Assembly: GCF_943736985.1 (NCBI RefSeq)
Contig: NZ_CALSFS010000001.1
Coordinates: forward strand, 434,001-498,000
Direction: 5' to 3'
Source: Clostridium sp. Marseille-Q2269
GTDB lineage: Bacteria; Bacillota; Clostridia; Clostridiales; Clostridiaceae
Length of the DNA: 64,000 bases
A program made the translations under genes and the position numbers. The notes beneath the pieces were generated by a model, which was not told the origin of the DNA, searched no databases, and saw only the letters and a list, made by a program, of their open reading frames with translations. How positions within the stretch are numbered: the first letter of the stretch is position 1; every line of letters starts with the position of its first letter. Below, piece by piece: positions 4,342 through 52,872 of the stretch.

Positions 4342-6912
4342 CTATACTATATAGTTCAAATAATTTTCAGGTATATAATCTATTAACATACTTTTGGCCT
4401 TTCTTTTATTATGTTCATATTGTGAAAAACTTAAATATAAGGATTTCTTTGCTCTAGTCATTGCTACATAAAATAATCGTTTTTCTTCTATTTCATTTCC
4501 TTCTTTTATTGACATATAATTAGGGAATATATTATTTTGAAGTCCAGCTAAAAATACATAGTCAAATTCTGCTCCTTTTGCTTGATGTACTGTTATTATT
4601 GGTACTCTAGGATATTTTATAAGCATTCTATCTAATTCGCTATTAGATAAGGACGTTATCTTTAAAAGTTCTACTAAATTATCTCTTGGACAACTCTCTT
4701 TATTCTCTACTTCTTTAGCTATAATAAAAAATTCTCTCAAATTATTTATCTTAATATATTGATCCTTATATGTCTCCTTTATCTTTGTTTTATTAACTAT
4801 TTCTCCTATTAATTCTTTAGGATTTTTTTTATAACTTAATTCCCTTAAATTCATTATTTCTTCATATATAGGCATGAATTTTTTAATATATTTGTTGTAA
4901 ATCCCCATTCTATTTATTATGGTTGGTTTAACTTTTTCATTTAACATAACCATAAGAACATCCTTCGTAGCTAATATATCATCCATGGCATCATGGCTAG
5001 ATTTTGTTTCTGTATTAAATAGATTACTTAAAGTTTCTAATTTATAATTTGTTAAATTGGGATAAAATCTTCTAGCTATATCTAATGTATCATAATAAGT
5101 TTTAAATGCTGCTTTCCATAACCCTATTTTTTTAAGTTCACTATTTAATATGCTTATATCAAAAGTTACATTATGCCCTATTATCACTGTATCTTTTATA
5201 AATTCCAAAAAGTCTTTTAAAACTACTTTCTTATTTTCTCCTTTTTGTTTTAAAAATTCATCACTAAAACCATGAACCAAATAAGAATCTCCTACAGACT
5301 TACATGGAATCAAAAATCTTTGGAAACTTTCTATTACTTCTCCTTTATTATTTATTTTAATTGCTGCAATTTGTACAATTTCATCCAATGTAGTATTAAT
5401 ACCTGTACTCTCCACATCAAAAATCACTACATTTTTGCTGTCTAATTCCCTAATTAAAAGTTCATAATAATCTCCATATTCTTGAGTATTTTTATTAATT
5501 AAATCTGTAAGTCTTACACCTGATCTTATATTTTCCTCTTTTTCTATTTCCTCTATGGTCTTTTCTCCTATTCCTCTTCCAATTTTCTTTATTATCCTTT
5601 TAAACCTATTGTTATCAAAATCATTTACTATAAGTTTTAAATAGGCTAACACATCTTTTATTTCCTCTCTCCTAAAAAATTTAAATTCATCTACTAAAAG
5701 AAATCCTATTCTTTCTTCCTTTGGAATCTTAGAGTTTAGTATTTTAAACTTTTCACTTAACGCTATATTTATTCTATTATTTCTAGTTAGTATAGCAATT
5801 TTCGAAAGATTTTCTACCTTTAATGATTTTATTTTATTAAATATAAAATCTGCTTCTGCCATAGTATCATAAGCTTCCCTAAACTGTATTAATTCTCCCT
5901 TTATATTGACTTTAGGCTCTATACCTTCTTTATATATTTCATTAACCCCTTCACCAAAAGCATTTACTAAAAATTCATAAGATGCTTTTAACAATATTTC
6001 TGATGATCTATAATTCTTATCAAAAACTATAAATTCTGGATTATATTCTTTTTTATACTTATCAAATATTATAGATGGATTAGATCCTCTCCATTCATAT
6101 ATGGTTTGGTAATAGTCACCACTCATCATTATATTATTATTTTCAAATAGTTTTGATACTATTTCATACTCTATTTCACTGGTATCTTGTACTTCATCTA
6201 TATGAATAAATTTATATTTTTTTCTCCAATATGTATATATACTTTCGTTTCTAAATAAATCATAAACTTTAATTATTAAATCATTAAAATCTAATCCGTG
6301 TCTTTCATATAATTTCTTATCATAAGTTGTTACCATTAAATATCCATATATCTTTAAATAATCTACTAAAGTTTTATCTACCATATACTTTTGATTTTTA
6401 CATATATCATTAAAAATATTTGCATTGTATTTTACCATACCATCTATAACATCTTTATAATTTCTTTCCTTATAATTTATGCTTTTTTCTTTAACCATAT
6501 TTATAAATCTTTGAAGGCAAGAAACGTTAAATTTATAAGGATTTAACTCATTTATTATTTCTTTTGTATCTTCCTCATCATATATGGTAAAATCAAAAGA
6601 AATATCTGTATTTTTTTTAGCTTCTTTTTTTATTATATCGAAACAAAAACCATGAAAAGTTCTTACATTAATTTTTAATCCTTCTTTTCCTACGGTCTCT
6701 ATTATTTTTTCCTTCATTTCCTTACAAGCTCTATTAGTAAATGTTAAACAAAGTATTTCATCTCCAATAGCTAGATTTTTATCTATTATATTACCTATTC
6801 TCATGCTTAATGTCTTGGTCTTTCCTGTTCCTGCTGAAGATAAAAGAAGTATATTTTTGTCTAATGTATTTATTACTTTTTGTTGTTTGTCGTTAAAATC
6901 TATATTTGACAT
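4342..6912 (-). CDS. UvrD/Rep-family DNA helicase with an internal DnaQ-type 3'-5' exonuclease domain
   Basis: About 856 residues. SF1A helicase motifs appear in order: Walker A SSAGTGKT (about 27-34), DEVQDTS motif II (about 240), VHQAKGAEFD motif V and FYVAMTRAKKS motif VI near the C-terminus. Between the helicase 2A parts, at about residues 490-660, lies a complete DEDDh exonuclease: VVIFDVESTG (DxE), a GHNVTFDI block and HDAMDDILAT (HxxxxD). The protein would couple 3'-5' unwinding to 3' end trimming, probably in DNA repair. The start is taken at the ATG behind GGAGGTG rather than an upstream GTG that overlaps the ribosome site. It appears monocistronic. Confidence 0.9.
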   Translation of the reverse strand: MSNIDFNDKQQKVINTLDKNILLLSSAGTGKTKTLSMRIGNIIDKNLAIGDEILCLTFTNRACKEMKEKIIETVGKEGLKINVRTFHGFCFDIIKKEAKKNTDISFDFTIYDEEDTKEIINELNPYKFNVSCLQRFINMVKEKSINYKERNYKDVIDGMVKYNANIFNDICKNQKYMVDKTLVDYLKIYGYLMVTTYDKKLYERHGLDFNDLIIKVYDLFRNESIYTYWRKKYKFIHIDEVQDTSEIEYEIVSKLFENNNIMMSGDYYQTIYEWRGSNPSIIFDKYKKEYNPEFIVFDKNYRSSEILLKASYEFLVNAFGEGVNEIYKEGIEPKVNIKGELIQFREAYDTMAEADFIFNKIKSLKVENLSKIAILTRNNRINIALSEKFKILNSKIPKEERIGFLLVDEFKFFRREEIKDVLAYLKLIVNDFDNNRFKRIIKKIGRGIGEKTIEEIEKEENIRSGVRLTDLINKNTQEYGDYYELLIRELDSKNVVIFDVESTGINTTLDEIVQIAAIKINNKGEVIESFQRFLIPCKSVGDSYLVHGFSDEFLKQKGENKKVVLKDFLEFIKDTVIIGHNVTFDISILNSELKKIGLWKAAFKTYYDTLDIARRFYPNLTNYKLETLSNLFNTETKSSHDAMDDILATKDVLMVMLNEKVKPTIINRMGIYNKYIKKFMPIYEEIMNLRELSYKKNPKELIGEIVNKTKIKETYKDQYIKINNLREFFIIAKEVENKESCPRDNLVELLKITSLSNSELDRMLIKYPRVPIITVHQAKGAEFDYVFLAGLQNNIFPNYMSIKEGNEIEEKRLFYVAMTRAKKSLYLSFSQYEHNKRKAKSMLIDYIPENYLNYIV

Positions 6913-7144
6913 AGGATACACCTCCCATATATTTTATATTCTATCATATTTAGCTCTATTATTTGTAAAGTTCTATTTACTTTTCAATTTTTATTAACAG
7001 TGGCTATATTATTAAATGCTTTTATCAAAGTGTACCTATCTTTCCGATGCATAATCTTATAATAAATCTTTTTTATCTTAAAGACATTGTATTTTAAATA
7101 TTTTGAACATAAAATTATATAATATGAATCAATATTTAAATTCT

Positions 7145-12087: not shown

Positions 12088-12552
12088 ATGTTTAAAGAAA
12101 TGAGAAGAAAAGATAAAAAATTAACTGAAAAGGAAAGTATATCGTTATTAGAAACAGCTAATTACGGAATTCTTTCAATATGTCTTAATAATGGATACGG
12201 TTACGGTATTCCATTAAATTTCACTTATAATAACGGTGCTATTTATTTTCATTGCGCAAAAGAAGGACAAAAACTTGAAGCAATAAATGAAAATAATAAA
12301 GTCTCATTTTCTATTGTAGATAATATAGAATTACTTCCTTCAAAATTTAGTACAAAATATACAAGTGTAATAGTATTTGGTAAAGCTTATGAAGTATTTG
12401 AAGATGAGAAGAAACAAGTACTACTATCTCTTATAAATAAATATTCAAAAGATTATATAAAAGAAGGTACTAACTATATAGAAAGGGCTCAAGATACAAC
12501 AACTGTTATAAAAATTGAAATAGACCACATTACAGGCAAAGGTAAAATATAA
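12088..12552 (+). CDS. Pyridoxamine 5'-phosphate oxidase-like FMN-binding protein (NimA type)
   Basis: 154 residues with the split beta-barrel flavin fold. The N-terminus MFKEMRRKDKKLTEKESIS and the motifs YGILSICLNNGYGYGIPLNF (around residues 28-48) and IYFHCAKEGQK match the NimA/5-nitroimidazole-resistance-related family common in clostridia. It probably binds FMN and reduces small molecules; the substrate is unknown. Preceded by its own promoter and an AAGGAGG site. Its stop codon overlaps the left end of the inverted-repeat element that follows. Confidence 0.88.
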   Translation: MFKEMRRKDKKLTEKESISLLETANYGILSICLNNGYGYGIPLNFTYNNGAIYFHCAKEGQKLEAINENNKVSFSIVDNIELLPSKFSTKYTSVIVFGKAYEVFEDEKKQVLLSLINKYSKDYIKEGTNYIERAQDTTTVIKIEIDHITGKGKI

Positions 12553-13077
12553 GGAAATTACGACATAACAGACTTTAAAGGATTAAAATTAAAACAAGGA
12601 ATACTTTTAGTCAATAGATGGCTATAAAAATAGAAAATACTATATTTGTGCTCTAATATTTAAACTAACACCCTAACGCCATGTCCTGTGGCTGCAGGGC
12701 TAAGTAAACGTCCTGATTACTTCACGTTTAAATATTAGGACACAAATAAAGTATTCTATTTATTTTTCTAGATATCTATTTTCCTTAAAAGTATTCTTTG
12801 TTTTAATCCATTTAAAGACTGTTATATAAATTTTCAGTTTCATATAAATATTTTAAATTTAAATATAAAATGATTGGCGTAGCCAGGAAATTGATCATAC
12901 GAATTTTTATTGCTAACGCATAAATATTTAGTATTAATAATGCCTATATAAATTTTATAAATCATATATTTTAAGGAGAAACAAATTAGAATCTCTTATG
13001 GAAGTGAATTGCCTTTAAATCCACATATCCCTTTTTAATCTAAGGTAGTAACCCTTTTACGTCGTAATTTTCTTATA
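12549..13077. repeat. 530-bp nested inverted-repeat element
   Basis: Outer arms of 17 bases (12549-12565 and 13061-13077; ATAAGGAAATTACGACA-like, with about two mismatches) enclose an inner imperfect palindrome with arms of about 100 bases (12565-12664 and 12725-12826, beginning TAACAGACTTTAAAGGATT and ending TAATATTTAAAC). The inner loop (12665-12724) is more GC-rich and has its own short stems (AAGTAA / TTACTT; CCTG..CAGG). No ORF of any size is inside. ATAT flanks both outer ends, a possible target duplication. The element fills the whole gap between two convergent genes, whose stop codons lie at its edges. It could be a non-autonomous mobile element or a very large bidirectional terminator/structured RNA. 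Confidence 0.7.
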
Positions 13078-13973
13078 TTATGAATTTATATCTATTATAT
13101 GATTTTGCCTATGATCACTCATAAAGAACACATTAAGGGAGCCTGGTCCACCATAAGTTCCTACTACTGGTCCTACATAATTTATTATTACATCTTTCAC
13201 TTTTATTTCTTTCAATATACGTTCTTTCAAATTCTCTGCATCTATATTTGAATCTCCATGAGAAATAGCTATTATCTCTTCTTCTGGATTCTTTGTTCTC
13301 TCTATAAGAGTTGTTGCTAATTTACTTATGGCCATCTTTCTTCCTTTAGCTTTACGTACTGTTATAACTCTTCCCTCATCATTTATAGTTAGTATAGGCT
13401 TAATATTAAGAACTGTTCCTATAAAAGCTGCTGCTGTTGAAATTCTTCCTCCTTTTTTGAGATGAATAAGATGGTTTACAAGCATATAGCTATTTAATTT
13501 GAACCTGCTTTCTTCCAAATTTTTAGTAACTTCACCAATAGTATGCCCTTTTTTTTCATATCCATGGCTTTCATTACCATAATCCCTTGTCCTAAGGATG
13601 CAGTTAATACATCTATTATTTCTATTTTTACATTTTCAAATTCATCTATTATCATATTTTTCGCTATATTAGCACTATTATATGTTCCACTTAATCCTGA
13701 AGAAACACATACATATAATATATCTTTATCTTTCTCTATGTATTCTTTAAAAGCCTTGTAATACACATCCGGGCTTGGTTGTGATGTTTTTGGCATTTCT
13801 GCTTTTCTTATAATTAAATAAAAATCCTTATAGGAAAGACTTTGTCCAAAATCATCCATATATTCTTTCCCTTCAACATTACAAATTAATGAAACATAAG
13901 GAATATCATTTTCTATTATATATTCACTAGGTAGATCACAACAAGAATCTGTCATTATAATATAATCTTTCAT
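13078..13973 (-). pseudogene. degV: DegV-family fatty-acid-binding protein, one-base frameshift
   Basis: Together the two frames make a complete protein of about 298 residues. The N-terminal part (MKDYIIMTDSCCDLPSEYI; SQPSPDVYYKAF; CVSSGLSGTYNSA) and the C-terminal part (HLKKGGRISTAAAFIGTVLNIKP; ISHGDSN; GTYGGPGSL) are both DegV/EDD-fold hallmarks. Family members present fatty acids to fatty-acid kinase. The frame breaks in the poly-A run read at 13549-13556 (8 bases; 9 would give MKKKGHTIGEV and a continuous protein). It is either a recent pseudogene or a homopolymer read error. The start is ATG 13973 behind GAGGAG. Confidence 0.88.
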
Positions 13974-14375
13974 CAATAATCTCCTCTTTAAGATAAATTT
14001 TTATAATTTAAGATAAAATACATACTATGATAATAAACTTATATTTAATTCAAACAAATTGCATAAAAGTATATTTATATATTAATATTTAACTATATTT
14101 AATAAAATCATAAAACCTTTCTATTATAACTAATATATCAGATATTATTAAAAATTATAATATATTTTAATAATATTTATTTCATTTTTATAAAAATAGT
14201 TGATTATTGATATTGTGTTACAAAATCTTATTATTCATTTTATAAGTTAAACTCCCTTTTATTAGTCATAATATATTAAATAAAAACTTTTTCCCTTGTA
14301 TAAATGTATGTTTCATTAATGAATCATAATTAAATGTTTAGATACTAACTTAGAATATTTAAATTATAAACCTCT
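13974..14375. other. Intergenic region, nothing recognised
   Basis: About 400 bases between two minus-strand genes; it should hold the degV promoter, but no distinctive element was seen before the terminator at its right edge. Confidence 0.5.
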
Positions 14376-30913: not shown

Positions 30914-31219
30914 TTTGTCATCTCCCTTAAATATTTTATGTAGATTGTCTACAATAGTCATATTTACTATTATACAATTTACTCCATAAATTTCAAAATT
31001 CATTTTACTGCTTTTATTTTAATATTTTTATGAATTGCTTTTATTGTCTGAATATTTATGACTTTTTCTTATATTAACTAATTTATTCACATAATCTCTA
31101 TAAATCATATAAATATTATATTTAATATGATTTATAGAAATTATTGTTATGTATCTAATTTAAAACAATCTAATATTTCTAAATTTAAAGGTAATTTTAT
31201 ATTAATGACACTGAATTTA

Positions 31220-43519: not shown

Positions 43520-43579
43520 ATAAATCAGCTCCTGACTTAGTTATATTATTACTATTATACCATTAATTATATCTATTCT

Positions 43580-43622
43580 TTTTAAATAGCAATATATTTA
43601 TATAATATATTGCTATTTAAAA
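43580..43622. repeat. Perfect 19-bp-arm hairpin
   Basis: TTTAAATAGCAATATATTA pairs with its exact complement across a loop of a few bases. It could be a terminator in either direction or an extrusion-prone palindrome. Confidence 0.55.
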
Positions 43623-43673
43623 CTAATATCAGAGCAAATTATAGTTAAATATTATATTTTCTATAAAAGATAA

Positions 43674-48209: not shown

Positions 48210-48245
48210 ATAATGTTAAGTGTAAAATTTTACACTTAACATTAT
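48210..48245 (-). terminator. Terminator of the mtnK-mtnA-aldolase genes
   Basis: A perfect 36-base palindrome (ATAATGTTAAGTGTAAAA and its complement) with a T-rich tail on the minus strand, about 100 bases past the aldolase stop. The rest of 48008-48347 shows only weak repeats of CTAGTTTAA-like words. Confidence 0.8.
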
Positions 48246-52789: not shown

Positions 52790-52872
52790 AAAAACCCATT
52801 TTATAATTTAAGTAAAATCTCTATTCTCCGGAAAATACAGTTTTACTTAAACTATTATAAATGGGTTTTTCA
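52790..52872 (-). terminator. Terminator of the glycine reductase operon
   Basis: A long stem AAAAACCCATTTATAA / TTATAAATGGGTTTTT (with a bulge) extended by AATTTAAGTAAAA / TTTTACTTAAACT, about 70 bases after grdD. Confidence 0.85.

Follow-up and report, generated by a model that had tools for sequence, protein, structure and literature searches.

The obvious candidate for an element with a TA target is an IS630-type transposase, and the palindromic REPINs have the Y1 transposases as their partner. RUP and BOX are dispersed small intergenic repeats; RUP has TA as its target and is tied to IS630. Both are repeats of pneumococci according to the accessible part of PMC3049150. For two Clostridium species, the part of PMC2267715 available to us describes the stem-loop repeat families Clop-1 and Clot-1, which are 93 and 74 bases long, and the accessible text of PMC10969869 does not mention clostridia. 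In our literature search, with subscription journals mostly outside it, we found no described family for the clostridial repeats that share an end motif with the element analyzed here.

This element lies in a 64-kb stretch of clostridial DNA, which we call the window, and consists of 526 non-coding bases that form a two-level inverted repeat between two convergent genes. Its borders were fixed from the repeat ends in other genomes and from the upstream gene, whose C-terminus is complete. The features are as follows:

12088..12552, + strand: full-length upstream gene coding for a pyridoxamine 5'-phosphate oxidase-like protein; the insert lies at its 3' end
12546..12571, + strand: left outer arm, AATATAAGGAAATTACGACATAACAG, carrying the stop codon of the upstream gene (12550-12552)
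12550..13075, no strand: whole non-coding element, TAAG...CTTA, with TA on both sides (12548-12549 and 13076-13077)
12565..12665, + strand: left inner arm, starting ATAACAGACTTTAAAG, readable as TA + ACAG
12666..12725, no strand: core between the inner arms, 60 bases, 50% G+C, two small hairpins in the minimum-energy fold
12726..12825, - strand: right inner arm, inverted, starting ATAACAGTCTTTAAATG, readable as TA + ACAG
12826..13053, no strand: right part of the outer element, A+T-rich, outside the inner foldback
13054..13079, - strand: right outer arm, inverted (AATATAAGAAAATTACGACGTAAAAG)
13078..13976, - strand: downstream convergent gene of the DegV family, split over two reading frames

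The initial annotation, made from the letters of the window, had described two levels of inverted repeat without an open reading frame, and the analysis bears this out. In a self-alignment, the inner foldback (12565-12825) matches at 70.6% over 272 columns (E 4.5e-25), and no reading frame within the element runs for more than 51 codons without a stop, which leaves no transposase-like stretch to test. The inner arms, annotated as imperfect and about 100 bp long, are real and align with 82 matches, 18 mismatches and 12 gap columns; the core was also correctly described as structured and richer in G+C (50%, against 26% for the element and 27% for the window). The outer arms exist as well, but the 17 bp assigned to them is too short, since they measure 26 nt each and pair at 23 of 26 bases (88%). 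An inverted-repeat scan with 423 overlapping 600-base segments gave an inverted match of any kind in 404, and the foldback of the element is the strongest of the window, with 105 bits against 77 for the next and a median of 27. On both strands the fold is better than that of 100 out of 100 shuffles (z -9.8 and -8.8). Other strong palindromes, with 66-77 bits, are located at 52790-52870, 31091-31144, 43574-43628 and 48210-48245; none of the four showed the outer-arm motif in its printed sequence, and they are probably ordinary hairpins or terminators.

The insert starts directly after the last codon of the oxidase-like gene, whose TAA stop at 12550-12552 comes from the insert. The encoded protein has 154 residues, and 29 of the 32 relatives examined (out of 80 loci) have 153-156; the best relative shares 58%, and many finish with a similar GK-containing tail. 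Because both length and tail agree with those of the relatives, we consider the gene complete, with its stop codon supplied by the insert. The claim that the element overlaps both stop codons holds for the outer arms, the right one of which reaches 13079 and thus into the DegV stop (13078-13080), but not for the 526-base unit: ending in CTTA followed by TA, it stops at 13075-13077, and the DegV stop falls just outside. The ATAT flanks noted initially are real in the form of ATA..TAT at both ends.

The element is short and non-coding and has terminal inverted repeats, as MITEs do, and it shares with them an A+T-rich intergenic target and a strong foldback. Elements elsewhere that carry its end motif are dispersed, and two of them have empty sites. 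The window element differs from MITEs in that no autonomous partner was found for it and that its sequence has been seen in one copy only, that of the window. We interpret it as an aged, non-autonomous insertion of the MITE-like kind, a reading to which we give a probability of about 0.6. Some transposase would have carried elements of this type, with ends TAAGRAAATTACGACRYAA, around this clostridial group, and one of them would have inserted into an A+T-rich site, presumably TA, where the oxidase-like gene ends. The gene would have stayed intact, with its stop codon provided by the insert. The long foldback of inner arms and core inside the insert, with its ACAG ends next to TA, would in the simplest case be a second insertion. 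Since its insertion the element has probably been a passive passenger between the convergent genes; it may mildly influence where transcripts end, though only as a side effect.

The evidence for this reading comes mainly from the outer arms, which the element shares with other genomes. In related clostridia, AATATAAGRAAATTACGACRYAA and close variants of it are found at the ends of short palindromic elements or close to them. A blastn search of the element against 12 close genomes matched the outer arm at three places in G137 and two in G139; the first 23 bases of the right outer arm agree fully with AATATAAGRAAATTACGACRYAA, and at two places in G139 the sequence departs from them in a single base. 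Across nine genomes, copies of the motif without mismatch occur in G139 (2) and copies with one mismatch in G137 (3) and G146 (2). Allowing up to three mismatches, the outer-arm 23-mer is present in 102 of 206 genomes of the family, and in 12 genomes that were chosen afterwards for high counts it has 189 matches, compared with 28 for the reversed control pattern. The closest relatives by TopB (topoisomerase III), which share at best 77% of this protein, carry the motif at most once (G109 and G167 1 each, G128 and G005 0), and this counts against the reading.

The motif often occurs as a pair. At 46 of 80 motif places in eight genomes a facing second end was found 60-400 bases away, with at most five mismatches over both ends, whereas the reversed pattern gave 0 of 80. 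The pairs are distributed unevenly (G146 16/20, G149 19/20, G153 0/14, G137 3/3, G136 1/3, G104 3/11, G105 2/6, G107 2/3). A divergent arrangement of the ends was tried as a control and occurred at 34 of 80 places; it is uninformative because palindromic ends match on both strands. In G149, one and the same repeat, 113-134 bases long, fills 14 of the 20 loci, at 83-100% over at least 131 columns and in differing surroundings. Alternatively, the outer arms could be a short palindromic motif with a protein-binding or regulatory role, recurring because its function is shared and not as the end of a mobile element, and the foldback could have arisen by local duplication and inversion. Consistent with this, the test used detected no facing second end at 34 of the 80 places, including all 14 in G153, and in G145 and G148 an end palindrome of about 35 bases of the TAAG..CTTA type stands with no good second end nearby (L173, L182, L185 and L200). 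The facing pairs at the other 46 places, the single repeat that fills most of the G149 loci and the two inserts with empty sites described below argue against a recurring binding motif, and we consider it very unlikely. At L173, another, weaker end palindrome is present about 900 bases away.

The two empty-site loci bear on mobility directly. An element in G139 (L112) is absent from the matching locus in G136 and G137, where the flanks are 90-92% identical and adjoin each other. Similarly, an element in G107 (L279) is absent from the matching locus in G104 and G105 (flanks 87-89%, adjoining); in G106 and G108, where this locus has diverged further, 26 and 95 different bases stand in place of the element. 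The L279 element has relatives, with 76-92%, at no fewer than 41 distinct places in G104. The observation of empty sites at two loci, each in two close relatives, reveals that repeats carrying the end motif move. The initial suggestion of a MITE-like mobile unit is thus upheld for the outer-arm sequence, which lies at or near the ends of mobile palindromic repeats, but not for this copy itself, whose own movement we infer.

A point against the reading is that in L112 and L279 the inserted DNA begins about 30-40 bases outside the AATATAAG motif, which is therefore subterminal in these elements; in the window element and in the G149 repeats the motif is terminal. The window element has TA on both sides, which suggests TA as its target. 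Among 19 G149 copies (one of the 20 loci, having no second end, was dropped), TA is found at 22 of 38 ends against a background of 0.115, with TA on both sides in just 7 of the 19, too few to establish a TA duplication. TAAT can be read by eye at both empty-site loci.

The searches for relatives of the whole element gave a different picture from those with its ends. None of the clostridial genomes searched yielded the 526 bases as a whole. Against 12, 206 and again 12 genomes (overlapping sets, with the best 3-4 candidates per genome scored among the 206), the element returned, besides the outer arm, A+T-rich matches that were weak throughout (51 bits or less), and against plasmids and phages it had no matches at E 1e-5. 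The interior of about 480 bases had no convincing match in the 206 genomes of the same family, so that the shared part amounts to only about 23-26 bases per end, which likewise counts against the reading. The right part (12826-13053) gave only weak A+T-rich matches in the related-genome searches, and the core alone, again among the best 3-4 candidates in each of the 206 genomes, gave one 21-base match. The exact end pattern also occurs four times in viral contigs, in no case with a second end facing it close by. Eleven matches in G104 (L121-L131) to 12904-12930 do not represent relatives: each consists of a 28-base match to the window element, and in 11 of 11 an identical second match recurs 518 bases away, which identifies them as another repeat.

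The nesting of the two foldbacks has to be judged against this background. The inner foldback is bounded by ends of its own, (TA)ACAG(A/T)CTTTAAA, with TA on both sides, and is most simply explained as a second insertion within the outer element. As a pattern, the inner-arm end was found in 9 of the 206 genomes, at one place each, compared with two genomes for the control pattern; the inner foldback is therefore not a repeat family in the genomes searched. Five inner-arm matches (L110, L111, L113, L082 and L115) were rejected as chance, because 100-base arms are absent from each of them. Since neither the inner end nor the core is repeated in the 206 genomes, the second insertion is likewise something we infer.

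A second alternative explanation, which the initial annotation had raised as a giant bidirectional terminator or structured RNA, is that the element is a selected intergenic structure in whose foldback both transcripts end or are stabilized. Its exact position between two convergent genes and its very stable fold on both strands would agree with such a role. However, no T-tract terminator was found in 12400-13250, and no Rfam family reaches its gathering score in the element, the two matches below that score being at chance level; no promoters were found in the element. The 18 inner-arm mismatches comprise four G-U pairs on the + transcript, five on the - transcript and nine transversions. Mismatches this neutral with respect to strand are as under drift, and in this one sequence there is therefore no sign of constraint at the RNA level. 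The covariation that could support a conserved fold would have to come from conserved relatives, and the 206 family genomes supplied none. We regard a selected RNA or terminator as unlikely.

If the element is instead an aged insertion, the question arises which transposase carried its ends. Of 14 related genomes with the repeats, just three were found to have IS630-type DDE_3 genes and the other 11 none, which does not fit an IS630-derived MITE. This also separates it from RUP with its IS630 link. With RUP and BOX it has in common that they are small dispersed intergenic repeats, with a TA target in the case of RUP; they belong to another genus and, by description, differ in sequence. Of the 24 IS200-type Y1 loci, found in seven of nine genomes, only L319 has the palindromic ends as a pair within 1.5 kb, perhaps by chance, and four others have one weaker end match each. 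A REPIN/RAYT system does not fit this count of 1 in 24. The repeats of G146 and G149 resemble REPINs in having two palindromic ends that face each other across a spacer; in contrast to REPINs, the ends of the window element are not full palindromes, and the Y1 genes do not lie beside the repeats. The window ends start with TAAG, and not with the GTAG or CGTC tag that the title of PMC3733652 names. Compared by description with Clop-1 and Clot-1, as given in the available part of PMC2267715, the repeats are similarly intergenic clostridial stem-loops, but those families measure 93 and 74 bases.

Judged by gene presence for the IS630 type and by end matches in the flanks for the Y1 type, we found no convincing partner transposase in the related genomes. 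The same counts bear on the possibility that the element is the remnant of a larger insertion sequence or fold-back transposon from which the transposase was deleted between the ends. The inverted ends with TA on both sides and the loss of coding capacity would be expected of such a remnant; however, with at most 51 codons free of stops no transposase-like stretch is left, and the scarcity of DDE_3 genes and of Y1 loci with paired ends also speaks against it. The initial annotation had suggested the ruin of a larger IS; the data neither favor nor refute this, and we consider it unlikely.

The aged MITE-like insertion, our preferred reading, could be part of a larger picture. Tentatively, the window element may be a nested and unusually large representative of a superfamily of mobile repeats spread across this clostridial clade. 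Within it, the palindromic ends would be kept, the interiors would be swapped, and the transposase would be of neither the IS630 nor the IS200 type. In some genomes the interiors of this proposed superfamily would be short words in inverted arrays, as observed in the fully printed copies of G146, G149, G137, G139 and G107, and in the window a long foldback. In G147, two inserts of about 400-500 bases (L175 and L184) have TAATAATATTACGACTTAA-type ends; their first 93 bases agree at 94% and an inner 158 bases at 98%, and their middle parts are different. Their comparison hints that interiors may have been swapped. Of greater interest than the window element, which is otherwise ordinary, is the wider set of palindrome-ended repeats. 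Repeats with this end motif occupy about 40 places in one clostridial genome (G104), and their movement is recent enough to have left empty sites between related species. If these repeats belong together, they would be a sizeable source of variation in intergenic regions and at gene ends in clostridia.

Two further observations concern the genes of the window. The DegV-family gene consists of two open reading frames on the minus strand (13494-13976 and 13078-13518), and this split reading frame reflects either a pseudogene or a sequencing error. In the UvrD-type helicase of 859 amino acids encoded at 4342-6921, the C-terminal helicase domain is interrupted by an inserted exonuclease domain of the DnaQ-like kind (PF00929, residues 499-655).
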